Shown piece by piece: positions 1,220-10,598 of a stretch of 57,504 bases of DNA. Source of the DNA: Propionibacteriaceae bacterium (GTDB lineage Bacteria > Actinomycetota > Actinomycetes > Propionibacteriales > Propionibacteriaceae); contig JADGPA010000074.1 of assembly GCA_017882685.1 (NCBI GenBank), positions 1 through 57,504 of the forward strand. Direction: 5' to 3'. Numbering within the stretch: position 1 is the first letter of the stretch; every line of letters starts with the position of its first letter. Below the pieces are notes generated by a model, which was given only the letters and a program-made list of their open reading frames with translations, ran no database searches and had not been told where the DNA came from. Position numbers and translations under genes: made by a program.

Positions 1220-3208
1220 TCAGCTGCGCCAGGTGCGCCAGAGGCGGGCGTACTCGCCGTCCCTGGCGATCAGTTCGGCGTGGGAGCCGAGTTCGGCGAT
1301 GCGGCCGTCGATCACCACGGCGATCCGGTCGGCGTCGTGGGCCGTGTGCAGCCGGTGGGCGATCGCGATCACCGTCCGGTCCTCCAGCAGGGCGGCCATC
1401 GAGCCCTCCAGGTGTCGGGCCGTGCGTGGGTCTATCAGCGAGGTGGCCTCGTCCAGCACGAGGGTGTGCGGATCGGCCAGCATCAGCCGGGCCAGCGCCA
1501 CCTGCTGCGCCTGCGCAGGGGTCAGGTGCACCCTGCCGTGGCCGAGCACCGTGTCCAGGCCCTGCGGCAGGCGCTCCACCCAGTCGAGGGCATCGACAGC
1601 CCGCAGTGCCTCTGTGACCGCCGCGTCGACCTCTTCACCCTCGAGCTGCCGGTCGCGGGCCAGCACGATGTTGTCCCGCACCGATCCGACGAACACGTGG
1701 TGCTCCTGGGTCACCAGGGCCACCTCTGTGCGCAGCACGTCCAGCGGCAGCTCCATCACGTCCACCCCGCCGATGTCGACCTCGCCGGTGCGCGGGCCGT
1801 TGATGCCGGCCAGCAGCCGTCCCAGCGTCGACTTGCCCGAACCGGACGGACCCACGATCGCCAACCGCTCACCCGGACGCAGGTCAAGGTCGATGCCGTG
1901 CAGCACGTCCGTGCCGGGCCGGTACGCGAACCTCAGGTCAGAGCCGACCACCTCGGTGCCCTCGGGCAGGTCCTTCCCCGCCGTCCGATCCTCCGGCACC
2001 TCGGCAACGCCGAGCAGCCGGGTGGTCGCGGCAAGGCCCACCTGCAGGGTGTCGAACACCTGGATCAGGCGGTCCATAGGCTCCACAAGGCCCTGAACGT
2101 AGATGGCTGCCGTCGTGATCTGGCCCAGGGTGACCCATCCCTGCGCATAGCCGACCGTCCCGAGCAGCACGACGCCGACCAGCGGAAGCTGGTAGGAGAT
2201 GTCGAGGAAGATGAAGAACAGGTTCCGCAGCGTCATCGTGTAGCGCTCGGCCTGGTTCGACTCGGCGATGTCGGCGTCACCGATGGCGATCCGCCGTCCA
2301 CCCAGCCCCAGCGCCTCCACCGTCCGGGCGCCCTCCACCGTCTCCGTTGTGGTGGAGTTGATCTGGGAATAGGTGCCCGACTCGGTGATGTAGCCCGCCG
2401 CGGCGAACTTCAGGTAGTGCCGGGTCGCGAACCACAGCACGACCAGCGAGCCGACGACAGTCAGGCTCAGGAACGGCGAGTTCAGGACCAGTGCCACCAG
2501 ACTGGCCACGACCAGCACCAGCGACATCACCAGCTGCGGGAACGCCCATCGCACCGATTGGCTCATCTTCGACACGTCGGACGTGATGCGCGTGAGCAGG
2601 TCACCACTGGACGCCGCCTCGACCCGTCCCAGCGGTAGCCGCAGGACGGTGCCGACGATCTCCTCGCGCGCGGCGGCGAGCAGGTCGTAGCCGAGCACGG
2701 TGGACGCGCGGCGGGCGGCGAGCACGAGGCCGGACTGCACCAGCACGATGACGACCACGCCGGCGATGATCGAATCGGCGGCTCCCACGTTGGCGGCCCC
2801 ACCGGTGACCCTGTCGATCAGGTCGCCCAGCATCCGCGGCACGATCAGCCCGGCCATCGCGGCGGCGAGGTTCGTCCCGATGGCGATGGCCAGCATGCCC
2901 CTTCGGGTGGCCAGCAACCGCCTCAGGAACGCCCAGGCTGCGGCGTTGCCGGCCACCGGCAGGCCGCGTTCCGGGTTACGGGACGCAGCGAAGAACACCC
3001 GGGCCCGCTCACCCCGCAGCCGATGCCGTTCGGCGAGCTTGCGGAACCGCTCGCCGATCGGCAGGCCGGCGCGCACCAGTAGGCCCTCGGGGAGACCGGG
3101 GGTCGGGTCGGTGGCTGCCCAGGTGTCGGGCGGCATTCGTGACGCAGGCGGCTCGTTCCTCACCGGCTGCTCCTCAGGCACCGTCCCGGAGCTCGTCGAC
3201 GGCTTCAC
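1220..3208 (-). CDS. ABC exporter half-transporter (TMD-NBD), subunit with intact Walker A/B but degenerate signature
   Basis: GTG start VKPSTSSG; IVGPSGSGKSTL, LVLDEATS, AHRL; signature position reads LTPAQAQQ. Confidence 0.9.
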   Translation of the reverse strand: MKPSTSSGTVPEEQPVRNEPPASRMPPDTWAATDPTPGLPEGLLVRAGLPIGERFRKLAERHRLRGERARVFFAASRNPERGLPVAGNAAAWAFLRRLLATRRGMLAIAIGTNLAAAMAGLIVPRMLGDLIDRVTGGAANVGAADSIIAGVVVIVLVQSGLVLAARRASTVLGYDLLAAAREEIVGTVLRLPLGRVEAASSGDLLTRITSDVSKMSQSVRWAFPQLVMSLVLVVASLVALVLNSPFLSLTVVGSLVVLWFATRHYLKFAAAGYITESGTYSQINSTTTETVEGARTVEALGLGGRRIAIGDADIAESNQAERYTMTLRNLFFIFLDISYQLPLVGVVLLGTVGYAQGWVTLGQITTAAIYVQGLVEPMDRLIQVFDTLQVGLAATTRLLGVAEVPEDRTAGKDLPEGTEVVGSDLRFAYRPGTDVLHGIDLDLRPGERLAIVGPSGSGKSTLGRLLAGINGPRTGEVDIGGVDVMELPLDVLRTEVALVTQEHHVFVGSVRDNIVLARDRQLEGEEVDAAVTEALRAVDALDWVERLPQGLDTVLGHGRVHLTPAQAQQVALARLMLADPHTLVLDEATSLIDPRTARHLEGSMAALLEDRTVIAIAHRLHTAHDADRIAVVIDGRIAELGSHAELIARDGEYARLWRTWRS

Positions 3209-5061
3209 TCGTCCTCCTCCATGCCGCGGCCGACGACGGCGCGATAGGCCGGGTCGGACAGCAGGTCGGCGTGGCGACCGCGCGTGACCTCGCGTCCGTC
3301 GACGAGCAGCGAAACCTCGTCGGCGTAGTGCAGCACCAGCGGCGAGGCGGTCATCACGACGGTGGTGCGTCCGCGCCGGTGCTCCACCAGGCGTCCGGCG
3401 ATCGCAGCCTCGGTGTGGGCATCGACGGCAGAGGTCGGCTCCACGAGCACCAGCACCTCCGGATCGAGCAGCAGGGCGCGCGCCAGCACCACGCGCTGCC
3501 GCTGTCCGCCGGACAGCCCGCGTCCAAGCTCGTCGATGCGGCCCTGCCAGCCGCCGGGCAGTCCGGCGTAGACATCCTCGGCCGCCGCGGTGTGCAGAAC
3601 CGCTTCGGCCTGCTCGCGGGTGTGGGTGCCCCACGGGTCCACAGCCTGCTGCAGCGTGCCGGCGAACAGCTGGCTGCTGGTGTCGCTCACCACCACCGTG
3701 CGCCGCAGGGACGCCAGCGGCAGCCGGGCGAAGTCGACCCCGTCGGCGGTAACGCCCCAGTCGGCCTCGCCCAGCGCGGCGTCGGCCGAAGCGGACGCCG
3801 ACCGGCGGGCCGCCTTCTCTGACCGCGCCTTCCGCGCCGCGCGTCCCTTGAGCCCGGGCTCGTCGGCAGCCACCTCCTCCTGCACCTGCTGGGTCGGCAG
3901 GTAGCGTCCGAGGCGATCGGCGAGGGACGCGGAATCCTCCGGCGTAGCACTGACGACGGCGAGGAACCGTCCCGGCTCGACGTGGACGCCGCTGTCTGCG
4001 TCCACCAGGTGCGGGCGGGCAGCCAGTGGCTCGACGCCCTCGCGGAACGGCACGTCGGCGTCCAGCAGGGCAATGGTCTTGCGGGCGGACACCAGCCCCT
4101 GCACCCACTTCTGGCCGAACTCGAAGAAGGTCTGCATCGGCCACACCATGAACACGGCGTAACCGACGAAGGAGACCAGCTGACCGACGCTGAGCCGTCC
4201 CTCGATCATCTCGTGAGAACCGAGCCAGACCAGGGTGACCAGGAGCATGCCGGATAGCAGCACGCTGATCGTCTCCGTCACCGCCTGCCACGTGCCCGTC
4301 GCGACCCCGAGATGACGGACGCGCTGCGACTGCGCTGCATAGTTGTTGCCGAAGGTCAGCTCGCCGCCGATGCCACGGAGGATCCGCAAGCCGCTGACGA
4401 TGTCGGTGGCCATCGAGGTGAGCTCACCGGTCTGGGTGCGCTCTGCGGTTTGCGCTGTGTTCAGCGGGCGCAGCACCGGCGAGGCCGCAGCGACCAGCAG
4501 CGGCGCGGCCACCAGCACCACCCAGCCGAGCGGCGGTGACGTGCTGAACATCAGGGTGCAGACAAGGATGAATGCTGCGAGCGATCCGATCGCCCGCGAC
4601 AGCACCTCGATGGTCTGGCCGAACGTGTTGGAGTCCGAGGACGAGATGCTCAGCACTTCACCGGTCGGCAGCCGGCGGCTCAGCACGTGGCCGAGCTGGA
4701 CGGCCTTGCGGGTCACCAGCTTCTGCGTGCCGTACAGCGCGATCAACCACGCCCGCACCACCAGCGTGTGCTGCAGGATGCCGGCGGCAGCGCCGATCAG
4801 GATCACCACAGCCAGAAGGCTCGACCACCACAGGCTGGCCCCAAGGTCGCCCTTCAGGATGCCGTCGTCGATCGCCTTGCCCAGCAGCAACGGACTGGTG
4901 GCCGACGGCAGGAACCACAACAGGCCGGCGACAGCCATGGCCCAGACCACGTCCGATTGCACCCGCAGCAGCCAGAACAGGAACCTGCTCGGGCTACGGG
5001 TGTCAGGGCGTGACGTCTCTGCCGGTGTGTAGGCGTCGACGTCTGGTGGGAAGTCATGCAT
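3205..5061 (-). CDS. ABC exporter half-transporter (TMD-NBD), subunit with degenerate Walker A and intact LSGGQ
   Basis: LSGGQRQRVVLARALLLDPEVLVLVEPTSAVD; overlaps the next gene by 4 nt; an upstream TTG at 5070 is also possible. Confidence 0.9.
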   Translation of the reverse strand: MHDFPPDVDAYTPAETSRPDTRSPSRFLFWLLRVQSDVVWAMAVAGLLWFLPSATSPLLLGKAIDDGILKGDLGASLWWSSLLAVVILIGAAAGILQHTLVVRAWLIALYGTQKLVTRKAVQLGHVLSRRLPTGEVLSISSSDSNTFGQTIEVLSRAIGSLAAFILVCTLMFSTSPPLGWVVLVAAPLLVAAASPVLRPLNTAQTAERTQTGELTSMATDIVSGLRILRGIGGELTFGNNYAAQSQRVRHLGVATGTWQAVTETISVLLSGMLLVTLVWLGSHEMIEGRLSVGQLVSFVGYAVFMVWPMQTFFEFGQKWVQGLVSARKTIALLDADVPFREGVEPLAARPHLVDADSGVHVEPGRFLAVVSATPEDSASLADRLGRYLPTQQVQEEVAADEPGLKGRAARKARSEKAARRSASASADAALGEADWGVTADGVDFARLPLASLRRTVVVSDTSSQLFAGTLQQAVDPWGTHTREQAEAVLHTAAAEDVYAGLPGGWQGRIDELGRGLSGGQRQRVVLARALLLDPEVLVLVEPTSAVDAHTEAAIAGRLVEHRRGRTTVVMTASPLVLHYADEVSLLVDGREVTRGRHADLLSDPAYRAVVGRGMEEDE

Positions 5062-5161: not shown

Positions 5162-6283
5162 ATGCTGATCGACTTCGCCCCGTCCGCGCGGTCCAGCGTC
5201 GGGATCGAGTGGGAACTCGCCCTCGTCGACCTCACCAGTGGCGAGCTGATGCCGGCGGCCGGAGAATTGCTCGACGCGTGCGGCGGCGGGGAGGACCGCC
5301 CGATCCGCAAGGAATACCTGCAGAACATGATCGAGCTGGTCTCCGGCGTGCACACCCGCGTTGCGGACGCCGTCGCGGACCTCGCCGGCAGCTTTGCCGT
5401 GGTCCAGGCGGCAGCAGCCGACATGGGCGTCGGCCTGATCGGTTCCGGCACCCACCCGTTCAGCCGCGCCGCAGCCCAGCGCAGGTTCGAGGGACCGCGC
5501 TACGACGTGGTGGCCGACCGCACCCAGTACTGGGGCCACCAGATGGCGATCTGCGGCACCCACGTCCACGTCGGCGTCGACGACCGGGACCTGGCGCTGC
5601 CGATCACCAACGGCCTTGCCCGGTTCTACCCCTACCTGCTCGCGCTGAGCTGCGCTTCGCCGTTCTGGGAGGGCGAGGACTCTGGATACGCCTCGCAGCG
5701 CACCATGCTGTTCCAGCAGCTTCCGACCAACGGCCTGCCGTATCCGATGCGCGCGTGGGCGGACTTTGAGGACTACGCGGAGGAACTGTTCGACTCCGGC
5801 ATGATCAGCACCCCGTCGGAGATCCGCTGGGACGTCCGTCCGTCGCCGAAGTTCGGCACGGTGGAGAACCGGACGGCCGATTCAGTGCCGACCTTTGCTG
5901 AGCTCGGCTGCCTTGCCGCGCTCACCCAGTGCTTCGCCGAGTTCGTCTCGCGCAGCTATGCCCACGACCACACGTATGAGTTGCTGTCGCCATGGCTGGT
6001 GCGGGAGAACAAGTGGCGAGCGGCCCGCTACGGCATGGACGCCTCCGTGATCACGCCCAATCCGGCCCGGCGCCAGGTGCCGCTGCGGGAGGGTCTGGCG
6101 CAGTGGCTGGAGCGGCTCGCGCCCATCTCCCGCGACCTCGGGTGCGAAGCGGAGCTGGCGTTCGCAGCGACCATCGCTGAGAAGGGAGCCAGCTACCAGC
6201 GGCAGCGCGCGGCCGGCGGCGCGGAGCGGGCACTGCGGCTGCTGCTGGCCGAGACCGGCCGGGAATCGCCGTTCGCCCATTAA
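5162..6283 (+). CDS. Glutamate-cysteine ligase family (GCS2/YbdK-type carboxylate-amine ligase)
   Basis: SSVGIEWELALVD, CGTHVHVGVDD, RWDVRPSPKFGTVENR. Confidence 0.9.
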   Translation: MLIDFAPSARSSVGIEWELALVDLTSGELMPAAGELLDACGGGEDRPIRKEYLQNMIELVSGVHTRVADAVADLAGSFAVVQAAAADMGVGLIGSGTHPFSRAAAQRRFEGPRYDVVADRTQYWGHQMAICGTHVHVGVDDRDLALPITNGLARFYPYLLALSCASPFWEGEDSGYASQRTMLFQQLPTNGLPYPMRAWADFEDYAEELFDSGMISTPSEIRWDVRPSPKFGTVENRTADSVPTFAELGCLAALTQCFAEFVSRSYAHDHTYELLSPWLVRENKWRAARYGMDASVITPNPARRQVPLREGLAQWLERLAPISRDLGCEAELAFAATIAEKGASYQRQRAAGGAERALRLLLAETGRESPFAH

Positions 6284-6292
6284 TCTGGCGCC

Positions 6293-7024
6293 GTGAAGCC
6301 CTTCCTAATGCTGGCCACCCGTGACCACGACGAGGCCGCCATGGCCGAATTCCGTTCGGTGCTGCGGCACTCAGGGCTCGCCAGCGGGCTGCTCGAACAC
6401 GTGCGGGTGGAGTCGCGTCCCCTGCCGCCGCTCGACCTGGCCGACTACTCCGGGGTCATCCTCGGCGGCAGCTCGTTCAACATCTCCGACTCGCAGAAGA
6501 CCGACCTGCAGCAGCGCGTCGAGGCCGACCTGCTCGCGCTCGTCGAGCTGATCGTCGACACCGACTTCCCGTTCCTCGGCATGTGCTACGGCGTCGGGGC
6601 CGTCACCACCCATCTCGGTGGGACGGTGGACCGCACCCACGGCGAGGCGGTGGGGGCCGTCGAGATCACGCTGACCGCGGACGGTGTCGCCGACCCGCTG
6701 CTGGCCGGCATCGACGAGCACTTCCAGGCCTTCGTCGGCCACAAGGAGGCGTCCAACGGCACCCCACCGAGCGTGACGATGTTGGCGACCGGCACGCTCT
6801 GCCCCGTCCAGATGTACCGGGTGGGCGCCAACGTCTACGTCACCCAGTTCCACCCCGAGCTGGACGCCGACGACCTGACCGCCCGCATGCGCATCTATCA
6901 GCACGCCGGCTACTTCGACCCCTCCGAACTCGACGACCTGATCGCCATGGCCTACGCCAGCGGCGTCAACGGCCAGCAGCACCTGGTGCTGTCGAACTTC
7001 GTCCGCCGCTACTCGTCCGACTGA
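6293..7024 (+). CDS. Class I glutamine amidotransferase
   Basis: GGSSFNISD, FPFLGMCYGVGAV (nucleophile Cys), VYVTQFHPE. Confidence 0.88.
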   Translation: MKPFLMLATRDHDEAAMAEFRSVLRHSGLASGLLEHVRVESRPLPPLDLADYSGVILGGSSFNISDSQKTDLQQRVEADLLALVELIVDTDFPFLGMCYGVGAVTTHLGGTVDRTHGEAVGAVEITLTADGVADPLLAGIDEHFQAFVGHKEASNGTPPSVTMLATGTLCPVQMYRVGANVYVTQFHPELDADDLTARMRIYQHAGYFDPSELDDLIAMAYASGVNGQQHLVLSNFVRRYSSD

Positions 7025-7785
7025 GCTGGCATCGGAGGCCCACCGCGCAGGTTGTACACGCGGAACAGCACGGCGTTGGCCACGCCGATCGCCTTGCCCT
7101 GCGCCGCGGTGATGCCGCCGATCAGGTCGCGGGGGGCGGGGTGGCCTGGCAGGTCGCCGAGGTAGCCGCCGTGCGCCTCCAGTGAAGCGATGCCGCGCTC
7201 CAACGGTTCCCCGGACACGTCCACGGCGTGGGTCGGCCGGCTGTCACCGGAGACCAGCAACCAGGTCGTGCCCCACTTCGGCAGGCCCTCTACTGCGGCC
7301 AGCTCGGGGAACACCCAGGTGTTGTCGGCGTCGCGCACTGCGTCAATGCAGGCGAGCCCCGCGGCCCTGTGGTCGGCCTGGTTCAGGCCCGCAACGAACT
7401 CCACGTCCCAGGAGCCGCTGACGACGACATCCGGCCTGAACCGCCGGATCTTCCGCGCGATGTCGCGGCGGAGATCGAGGGAGTAGACCAGCATCCCGTC
7501 GGGGTGGTCGAGCATGGTCAGGTCCTTCACACCCACCGCGTCGCAGGCCGCCCGCTGCTCGCCGGCCCGGAGCGCTCGGGTCTCCTCCGGCGGACGCTGC
7601 ATGCCGGCCTCTCCTCCGGTGAGCAACAAGTACGCCACCTCGACGCCGGCCGCCGTCCATTTCGCGATCGCCGCCGACGTGCCGTACTCGACGTCGTCGG
7701 GGTGAGCGACAACGCACAGCACCCGCTGGAAACCCGCGTCGGGGAGGGCTTCCATGCTCGGCCGTTCGATGCTGGGTTGGCTCAT
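7009..7785 (-). CDS. PIG-L family deacetylase
   Basis: CVVAHPDDVEYGTSA; LLLTGGEAG; 16-nt tail-to-tail overlap with the previous gene. Confidence 0.9.
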   Translation of the reverse strand: MSQPSIERPSMEALPDAGFQRVLCVVAHPDDVEYGTSAAIAKWTAAGVEVAYLLLTGGEAGMQRPPEETRALRAGEQRAACDAVGVKDLTMLDHPDGMLVYSLDLRRDIARKIRRFRPDVVVSGSWDVEFVAGLNQADHRAAGLACIDAVRDADNTWVFPELAAVEGLPKWGTTWLLVSGDSRPTHAVDVSGEPLERGIASLEAHGGYLGDLPGHPAPRDLIGGITAAQGKAIGVANAVLFRVYNLRGGPPMPAQSDE

Positions 7786-7895
7786 GACTCACCCTAGGCC
7801 GGTGCCACGTTGGCCAGCAGGTGGCAGCCCTGCCACCGTCGGGGCGTGAAGAAACGTATGGACGCGCCGCTGCGGGTCAGCGCAGGATGGGGCCC

Positions 7896-10598
7896 ATGAC
7901 GCCCGGGAGGGGACCCGAGAGACCGGCCATCCGCACGCCCGACCAACGCCTGCGGGTCTTCGTCTCGTCCACCTTGCGCGAGGTGGAACCGGAGCGCCGC
8001 GCAGCCCGCACGGCCATCGAGCACCTGCGGCTGGCGCCGGTGATGTTCGAGTTGGGCGCCCGTCCGCACCCGCCGAAGGAGCTGTACCGGGCCTACCTCG
8101 AACAGAGCGACGTCTTCGTCGGCATCTATTGGCAGAGCTACGGCTGGGTGGCACCGGGTGAGGAGATCTCCGGGCTCGAAGACGAGTACCGGCTCGCGCC
8201 GGGAGCGATGCCCAAGCTCATCTATTTCAAGCAGCCGGCACAGCGGGAGGAGCGGCTGGCCGGGCTTGCTCGTCGCATCCAGAGCGACGACACCGCCGCC
8301 TACAAGTCGTTCGGCACCGCAGAGGAGCTCGCAGAACTGCTCGAGTCCGACCTTGCCACCATGCTGGCCGAACGGTTCGACGATTCCCGTTCGGCCTCCG
8401 GCGACGGAGTTCCTCCCCCTGTCGACTCAAGCCCCTGGTCACGCGTCCCAGTGCCCTACTCCCGCCTGATCGGACGCGAGCAGGAGGTGGCGGAGGTTGT
8501 CGACCTGCTGGCCAGCCCCGAGAACCGGGTGGTGACCCTGGTGGGGGCCGGTGGTATCGGAAAGAGCCGCCTCGCGATCGAGGTGGCCGACGTCGCCTCG
8601 GCGCAGTTCCCGGACGGCTCGGTGTTCGTCGCGCTGGAGAACGTTCTCGAGCCGAACCTGCTGCTGCCGACGATCGCCTACGCGCTGGGCATCCGGGACA
8701 CCGGCGAGGTGCCGCTGGAGAAGCGGCTCGAGATCGCCTTCGAGGGACGGCGGTCGTTGGTGGTGCTCGACAACTTCGAACAGCTCGTCCAGGCAGCGCC
8801 GGTGCTGGTGCGGCTGTACGAGATCGCCCCCGATGCGGCGTTCCTCGTCACCAGCCGCGCCGTCCTGCGCATTCGTGGCGAACGGGCCTACGAGGTGCCG
8901 CCGCTGGCCACCCATGACCCCGCCTCGCCCACCTCGGTGACACGGGCGATGACCGCTCCGGCTGTCGAACTGTTCGTCGAACGTGCCCGGGCGGTGAAGC
9001 CCGACTTCGAGCTCACCCTCGCAAACGCTCCGGCGGTGACCGGTATCTGCGACGCGCTGCAGGGGCTTCCGCTGGCCATCGAGCTCGCCGCGGCGCGCAC
9101 CCGGGTGTTGTCGCCCGCGTCGATCCTGCAGCGGCTGGACCGGCAGCTGCCGATGCTGGTCGATTCCAGCCGCGACCTGCCCGAGCGCCAGCGCACCCTG
9201 CGCTCCACGATCGAGTGGTCGGCGGCCCTGTTGCTGGAGTCGCAGCGCGCCCTGTTGGCCGACCTCGGCGTGTTCGCCCAGGACTTCACCTTGGAGGCGG
9301 TGGAGGCGCTCGGCGCCGGACGGCTGTGGGACGGCGAGGCGATCGCAGGGCTGGCAGCCCTGGTGGACTCCTCGCTGGTCAGCCAGCGCGACGTCAGCGG
9401 CGAATCGGTGTTCACGCTGCTGGCCACCGTCCGCGAGTACGCGATCGGACGGCTGCAGGACACCGGCGACGAGCGGCGGATGCGGGATGCGCACGCGAAG
9501 TTCTACTCCGAGCTGGCCCGCCGGGAGGCGCGGGGCCTGCAGGGTTCAGGCCAGAAGGGTGCCGTCGCACGGCTGAGCCTCGAACGCGCCAACCTGCGCG
9601 CGGGCGTCCGGCACCTCGTCGACATCGGCGACTTCGCCACAGCCACCGACGTCGCCTGGCGGCTGTACCTGTACTGGTGGGTGGGTGCCTACTTCGGCGA
9701 GGTCAGTGTTTGGATGGCCGACGTCCTCGCCCGCGGCGGCGATCAGCTCACCGACCACCAGCGCGCGGTGGCTCGGTTCTACGTGCTGTGGCGCGAGATG
9801 TGGGACGGCCCGTCGCCGACGATTGCGCAGGACTTGGCTGACCTGGCCGAGCCCTTCGCCCGCACCGCGGACGACCTCGGGGTTGCCATGGCAACGTCGG
9901 CCGCCGGGCTCGCCCAGGTGCAGAGCGGTGACCGCAACTTCGACATCCCGGCCGAGCGGCTGCGACGGGGCGCAGAGCGCTTCCGTGCCTCCGGCTCCTT
10001 CTGGGGCGAGGTGCTGTCGCTGGTGGCGCTGGGCCGCATCGAACACCTTCGGCAGCACCCCGACGCGGCATTGTCCCTGTTCCGGCAGGCGAACGAGGCT
10101 GCTGTCACCGGCGGGGACGGGTTCGGTTCCACCATTGCCACCCACCACCTCGGACGGGAACTGCTGGCATCCGGTCACGTCGAGGAGGCCCGCCGCGTGT
10201 TCCACAGCGGCCTGCAGGTGTCCATCGGGCTGCACCACGACGAGGGCATCGCCTACACCCTTGAGGGCCTGTGCGCGATCGCAGCGCTGCACGGTGACGT
10301 CGACCGGGCCGGGGTGCTGGCAGGCGCAGCCGCGTCCATCCGTCACCGGGTGGGCATGTACGACGTGCCGGAGTTCGTGTTCCACGAGGGCTACGTTGAG
10401 CGGCTGCGGACGCCGGAGAATGCGTCCCGGCTCGATGAAGCCCTGGCCAGGGGCCGGGAGTACGGGGCCATCGAGGCCGCCGAGTACGCGCTGGCCTCCG
10501 AGCCCGGCCCGGACGACGTCGCCGCCGCGGTCAGGCAGCCGGCACTCAGGGCTGCGGCGTCAGCGGGCGACCAGGCGCGCGAGGTCGCCGCCCTGTAG
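7896..10598 (+). CDS. DUF4062 domain - STAND/NB-ARC-like ATPase - TPR-like repeat protein
   Basis: LRVFVSSTLREVEPERRAARTAIE (DUF4062); TLVGAGGIGKSRLAIEVA (P-loop), RRSLVVLDNFEQL, GLPLAIELAAAR; ORF open from 7821, more likely start at 7887/7896. Confidence 0.85.
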   Translation: MTPGRGPERPAIRTPDQRLRVFVSSTLREVEPERRAARTAIEHLRLAPVMFELGARPHPPKELYRAYLEQSDVFVGIYWQSYGWVAPGEEISGLEDEYRLAPGAMPKLIYFKQPAQREERLAGLARRIQSDDTAAYKSFGTAEELAELLESDLATMLAERFDDSRSASGDGVPPPVDSSPWSRVPVPYSRLIGREQEVAEVVDLLASPENRVVTLVGAGGIGKSRLAIEVADVASAQFPDGSVFVALENVLEPNLLLPTIAYALGIRDTGEVPLEKRLEIAFEGRRSLVVLDNFEQLVQAAPVLVRLYEIAPDAAFLVTSRAVLRIRGERAYEVPPLATHDPASPTSVTRAMTAPAVELFVERARAVKPDFELTLANAPAVTGICDALQGLPLAIELAAARTRVLSPASILQRLDRQLPMLVDSSRDLPERQRTLRSTIEWSAALLLESQRALLADLGVFAQDFTLEAVEALGAGRLWDGEAIAGLAALVDSSLVSQRDVSGESVFTLLATVREYAIGRLQDTGDERRMRDAHAKFYSELARREARGLQGSGQKGAVARLSLERANLRAGVRHLVDIGDFATATDVAWRLYLYWWVGAYFGEVSVWMADVLARGGDQLTDHQRAVARFYVLWREMWDGPSPTIAQDLADLAEPFARTADDLGVAMATSAAGLAQVQSGDRNFDIPAERLRRGAERFRASGSFWGEVLSLVALGRIEHLRQHPDAALSLFRQANEAAVTGGDGFGSTIATHHLGRELLASGHVEEARRVFHSGLQVSIGLHHDEGIAYTLEGLCAIAALHGDVDRAGVLAGAAASIRHRVGMYDVPEFVFHEGYVERLRTPENASRLDEALARGREYGAIEAAEYALASEPGPDDVAAAVRQPALRAAASAGDQAREVAAL

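Follow-up and report, generated by a model that had tools for sequence, protein, structure and literature searches.

ABC transporters assemble each of their ATP sites from the Walker motifs of one subunit and the signature motif of the other. A pair of half-exporter genes from a Propionibacteriaceae bacterium therefore raises the question of what an exporter can be when one of its two sites seems to have lost both of these contributions, Walker A included. The pair lies in a stretch of 57,504 nucleotides (assembly GCA_017882685.1, contig JADGPA010000074.1), hereafter the window, and had been predicted from the letters to encode one full site and one fully dead site. Here, we describe the motifs of the pair, the distribution and selective constraint of its relatives in Actinomycetota, and the known transporters to which it can be compared, and we weigh the readings that this evidence allows.

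Complementary motif losses in the window's gene pair

The two reading frames named in the original prediction are present and lie on the minus strand, with P0002 (3205..5061, 618 aa), the pseudo-NBD half-exporter, first and its catalytic partner P0001 (1220..3208, 662 aa) after it. They overlap by four base pairs, GTGA (3205..3208, minus strand), in which the stop codon of P0002 meets the GTG start of P0001, and an RTGA-type stop/start overlap likewise occurs in 4 of 7 orthologous loci inspected. In both proteins ABC_membrane (PF00664) is fused to ABC_tran (PF00005), each scoring above its Pfam cut-off, the arrangement of type IV (exporter-fold) half-transporters. The ABC_tran match of P0002 starts at profile position 43, past Walker A, indicating that the Walker A part is unrecognisable. 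P0001 carries an N-terminal extension of about 90 aa (residues 1-90), whose length is variable and whose constraint is weak (dN/dS 0.74); in another locus (L031), the extension of this type holds a repeated VPEEQPVRNEPGASR unit.

All motif strings previously quoted for the pair were recovered, namely GPSGSGKST, VTQE, LVLDEATS, AHRL, and LTPAQAQQ in P0001, and AVVSATPEDSASLADRL, VVVSDTSSQ, VLVLVEPTS, VVMTASPLV, LSGGQRQ, and a basic insert in P0002. In an alignment with its relatives and P0001, the SATPEDSAS of P0002 sits gaplessly over GPSGSGKST of P0001. The Walker A replacement, VSATPEDSA (residues 370-378; 3929..3955 on the minus strand, as derived from the residue numbers), leaves the length of the loop unchanged but is acidic and contains no Lys. 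The P0002 NBD has neither the P-loop glycines nor the Walker A Lys, also lacks the A-loop strand, and carries Thr for the Q-loop Gln, Val for the Walker B Asp, and Ser for the switch His. What it retains is the LSGGQRQR signature (residues 516-523; 3490..3513, minus strand), which would complete the partner's canonical site, together with the Walker B Glu (VE) and the D-loop SAVD, both within VEPTSAVD (residues 540-547; 3418..3441, minus strand). In P0001, every Walker-side motif is intact and LTPAQ occupies the signature position instead of LSGGQ.

Judged by these motifs, P0001 and P0002 can form exactly one complete composite ATP site, from the Walker side of P0001 and the signature of P0002, and the opposite site, in which an acidic loop would face TPAQ, lacks both halves. 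A homodimer of either subunit would have no complete site. This core claim of the original prediction holds for the window and for the 128 complete pairs described below.

The basic insert had been noted as a further peculiarity of the dead NBD. It is indeed present in P0002, between the pseudo-Walker A and the pseudo-Q-loop (about residues 389-435; approximately 3757..3897, minus strand), and includes a basic GLKGRAARKARSEKAARR stretch. Such an insert is found, however, in only 15 of 131 relatives, all of Propionibacteriaceae type, where it extends the spacing from Walker A to Q-loop to 74-77 residues against a median of 33. Its absence from 115 of the 131 and a dN/dS of 0.62, the weakest constraint inside the dead subunit, led us to reject it as an element of the core mechanism; it is a lineage-specific and weakly constrained feature.

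Distribution, conservation, and history in Actinomycetota

Among the relatives that genome collections name are Propionicimonas and further metagenome-assembled genomes of Propionibacteriaceae. Within the genus, 10 of 25 genomes, among them that of the window, contain the P0002 gene at 73-100% identity. When 247 genomes from across the class were sampled with a 13-member profile, the family was detected in 117, frequently in two to four copies per genome, and it also occurs in a few genomes from other classes of the phylum. Actinomycetota loci fetched with their flanks provided a census of 131 dead subunits and 128 downstream partners; of the three dead subunits without an adjacent partner, two share their locus with a different ABC gene and the third is located at a contig end.

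Motif states in this census are nearly uniform. None of the 131 dead subunits has the Walker A Lys, and all of them have Ser at the switch position, S-G-G in the signature, and Asp in the D-loop. Conversely, Walker A Lys and Q-loop Gln are found in 128/128 adjacent partners, Walker B DE and switch His in all 127 whose sequence covers that part, and S-G-G in 0/128. The losses described for P0002 accordingly extend to its orthologues where the Walker A Lys and the switch His are concerned, but not throughout for the Walker B Asp, the least uniform of them (Val in 74, Asp in 27, and His in 15 of 131). The Walker A replacement is nine residues long in 130 of 131 sequences, with freely variable letters, and its net charge is 0 in 19 and negative in 112, never positive, compared to +1 in all 128 partners. 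Dead subunits have 9-12 residues fewer than partners between the membrane domain and the Walker A position, and the A-loop Tyr of 127 of the 128 partners has no alignable counterpart there. Altered positions at which dead subunits carry a fixed residue include the switch Ser and a Pro (128/131). The partner D-loop Asp is lost in 20 partners, mostly as AEAGS or ADAGS and in the clade nearest TetB (see below); because this D-loop would face the dead site, its loss adds to the erosion there.

The census thus indicates that erosion is concentrated on one site and conservation on the other, and the parts that the dead NBD has kept, signature and D-loop, are those serving the partner's site. Given 131/131 and 128/128, the motif pattern of the window's pair is not due to chance, and the Walker-A-less pair is a conserved family rather than a single-genome oddity. 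A search for orthologues with normal motifs, a finding that would have spoken against the original prediction, returned none among the 131 relatives and 128 pairs; the profile used was seeded with Walker-A-less members, and intact ones could score lower against it. Full-length family members examined score at least 362 bits, versus at most 318 bits for the matches below the family. The latter belong to ordinary heterodimers; they carry GxxGxGKST and LDDATSAVD, and their partners have no canonical signature; such Walker-A-bearing matches form separate groups in the tree and are the expected less-eroded relatives.

The evolutionary history was examined with a quick tree (SH-aLRT support only) of 45 dead subunits and 44 partners, members from other classes included, which was built from membrane-domain columns only and is hence independent of the lost motifs. 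Dead subunits form one clade (SH-aLRT 99) and partners another (99). The dead subunits group with intact-Walker-A, signature-bearing subunits of ordinary heterodimers (97), the nearest outside heterodimers retain Walker A, and ordinary intact-Walker-A pairs of the same genomes fall outside the Walker-A-less clade. A single dead clade and a single partner clade, with Walker A present in the nearest outsiders, place the loss at one early event, after which both halves were retained throughout Actinomycetota. Pairwise membrane-domain distances of dead subunits and partners are correlated at r = 0.93, a value reached by 0 of 2000 permutations. Within the genus, median dN/dS is 0.19 around the Walker A replacement, 0.24 in the rest of the dead NBD, and 0.12 in the partner NBD, values to be read relative to one another only, as NG86 dS is biased in GC-rich genes; purifying selection acts on the dead NBD.

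In the genus, the pair is usually located between genes for a quinone oxidoreductase and a GCS2 (glutamate-cysteine-ligase-like) protein, with class-I glutamine amidotransferase and PIG-L deacetylase genes coming next; the two flanking genes occupy 118-1089 (quinone oxidoreductase) and 5162-6283 (GCS2) in the window. In genus genomes without the exporter (G006, G007, G014, G018, G002, and G022), GCS2 directly adjoins the oxidoreductase, leaving an empty site, which suggests that the pair is an accessory two-gene block. A functional link to these two neighbours was considered and rejected, since adjacency is weak evidence and the spot is conserved without the pair too. Across the wider family, neighbours are mixed, with no dominant class beyond an apparent synteny with GMP synthase in some lineages. 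The PIG-L deacetylase gene (7009-7785, minus strand) co-occurs with the exporter in the genus, being present in 9 of 10 genomes with it and in 0 of 15 without; the two lie on different contigs in two genomes, and shared ancestry may explain the co-occurrence. Next to it, 7821-10598 on the plus strand encodes a 925-aa STAND-type ATPase with DUF4062, NB-ARC/AAA, and a helical-repeat-like C-terminus. In nine other loci (L157, L158, L161, L163, L164, L166, L168, L171, and L172; genus code g27, family code f22), the Walker-A-less pair is immediately preceded, on its upstream side, by an ordinary heterodimeric exporter pair that retains Walker A and has LVLDDPLS / LILDEATS, placing exporters of differing degeneracy in tandem.

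Comparison with known asymmetric transporters

TetAB from Corynebacterium striatum (pTP10) likewise consists of adjacent half-exporters, a signature-only and a Walker-only subunit, encoded in one operon. TetA resembles P0002 in keeping LSGGQRQR and having no Walker A, and TetB resembles P0001 in keeping GTSGAGKST, TQD, LDEAT, and AHRL, with IPPEVEQQ replacing LSGGQ; the TetB NBD is approximately 50% identical to partners of one clade of the Walker-A-less family. On the other hand, TetA shows only approximately 26-31% identity, has lost the whole Walker A region and not just its letters, and differs in its Walker B (LDDPTT) and in having no basic insert, whereas TetB departs from P0001 in its D-loop (AEAGS). 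The NCBIfam models tet_ABC_AB_A and tet_ABC_AB_B gave 71 and 134 bits, below their cut-offs of 1025 and 999. On sequence grounds, the window's pair can be assigned to the TetAB kind, although it is not TetAB itself. In the pTP10 tetA/tetB locus (L202:4566-7691), signature and D-loop of TetB are both degenerate.

TetAB has been described as an efflux pump for tetracycline and beta-lactams (PMC8304765), and a reported exporter with the matching partition of motifs indicates that this kind of transporter works. No discussion of its motif losses was found in the literature searched, which did not extend to the original TetAB papers, and TetAB, the best-known transporter of this kind, is apparently an unrecognised member of the Walker-A-less type. 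Likewise, our literature search, with most subscription papers outside its scope, found no description of a Walker-A-less exporter family and yielded nothing usable on it for RamA/RamB, StrV/StrW, or missing Walker A. A profile search of the PDB matched ordinary exporters only, with no solved member of the family, and AlphaFold2 models of the two subunits, from shallow alignments of 8 and 7 sequences, reached pLDDT values of 53 and 48, too low to be of use.

Among fungal PDR (ABCG-type) transporters, Pdr5 also combines one canonical with one degenerate site, with losses of Walker A, Walker B, and H-loop in one NBD and of the signature in the other (PMC7756269, PMC8421411). However, it is a single chain in which NBD precedes TMD, its TMD fold is a different one, and the two systems are not homologous as pairs. 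P0001 and P0002 are separate TMD-NBD half-transporters and not a full-length NBD-TMD-NBD-TMD chain of the PDR subfamily. Moreover, Walker A of Pdr5 keeps its glycine-rich loop (Lys to Cys), and its degenerate site still binds ATP. TM287/288, BmrCD, and MsRv1273c/72c share with the window's pair the type IV fold, tandem genes, and one consensus plus one degenerate site, but Walker A is present in both of their subunits, and ATP is bound at the degenerate site (for MsRv1273c/72c, PMC12038006). The loss had originally been judged more extreme than the usual Walker B Glu substitution of exporters such as TM287/288 and BmrCD; in kind, an erosion of almost every motif at a single site has precedents in Pdr5 and TetAB. 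Degenerate-site exporters are already known; what is new here is a heterodimeric one in which Walker A itself is gone.

A proposed one-site transport cycle and its alternatives

We consider it probable that the pair works as an obligate heterodimer, a type IV ABC exporter powered at a single ATP site, in which the second site has become a nucleotide-free protein contact. By sequence, P0001 supplies the A-loop, Walker A, Q-loop, Walker B, and switch His to the sole canonical site, to which P0002 contributes the LSGGQ signature and the D-loop. From its motifs, the pseudo-site is predicted to hold no nucleotide, and the two NBDs may remain in direct protein contact there, as at a hinge, while opening and closing at the canonical site, so that one ATP would be bound and hydrolysed per cycle. 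Transport by P-glycoprotein survives mutation of one Walker A (PMC4846820), and in one state of MsRv1273c/72c the NBDs are joined at a degenerate site that is empty (PMC12038006); both observations suggest that a nucleotide-free hinge is workable. By analogy with TetAB, the pair most likely performs efflux of a small hydrophobic or amphiphilic compound.

The precedent that counts against a nucleotide-free pseudo-site comes from the degenerate sites studied so far, which bind ATP even in the heavily altered case of Pdr5 (PMC8421411, PMC7756269). The second site could accordingly be an ordinary degenerate one that still holds ATP non-canonically, as stationary glue, like that of Pdr5 or MRP1, and the fixed switch Ser and Pro could form a new ligand pocket as well as a packing surface. 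Yet Pdr5 keeps most of its P-loop, where the present family has an acidic loop of variable sequence; this family also has no A-loop strand and no signature opposite the pseudo-site, and the fixed residues are small or rigid and not phosphate-binding. We therefore regard retained ATP as unlikely.

Somewhat less likely still is a role as an exporter-fold importer or in signalling, like IrtAB or YbtPQ, for which the asymmetry would be an adaptation. Exporter-fold importers are known in actinobacteria (IrtAB, PMC10246721), and two FecCD transport proteins and one lysine/ornithine monooxygenase occur among the 71 neighbouring genes scanned; the window's neighbourhood, however, contains no siderophore genes, the family has no consistent class of neighbour, and TetAB, the relative with a reported function, is an efflux pump. 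The number of lost motifs and the variation of the Walker A replacement among relatives might also be taken to mean that the pseudo-NBD gene is decaying, its partner acting as a homodimer or with another subunit. A partner homodimer would, however, have a signature at neither site, and 128 of 131 loci across the class have the two genes intact and side by side, with co-evolving membrane domains, an invariant signature, and dN/dS well below 1; on conservation and dN/dS, this reading was rejected as highly improbable. Returning to the one-site exporter, we also lean, with less assurance than for the pair itself, towards a widespread and ancient family using one ATP per heterodimer, whose second site would have turned into a permanent nucleotide-free hinge once, in an early actinobacterial ancestor.

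These results bear on why a second site that hardly hydrolyses ATP persists in many ABC exporters. The degenerate site is currently viewed as a stably ATP-filled hub (PMC7756269); if the proposed mechanism is true, a large, natural, and strictly paired family would show that such a hub can do without ATP. Evolution appears to have produced pumps driven from one ATP site only, which suggests that this is also how many pairs annotated merely as "ABC transporter ATP-binding protein" work, perhaps including TetAB itself and several per Streptomyces genome. Members of the family would then be ready-made proteins for determining the stoichiometry of one-ATP transport and for testing the role of the second site elsewhere.
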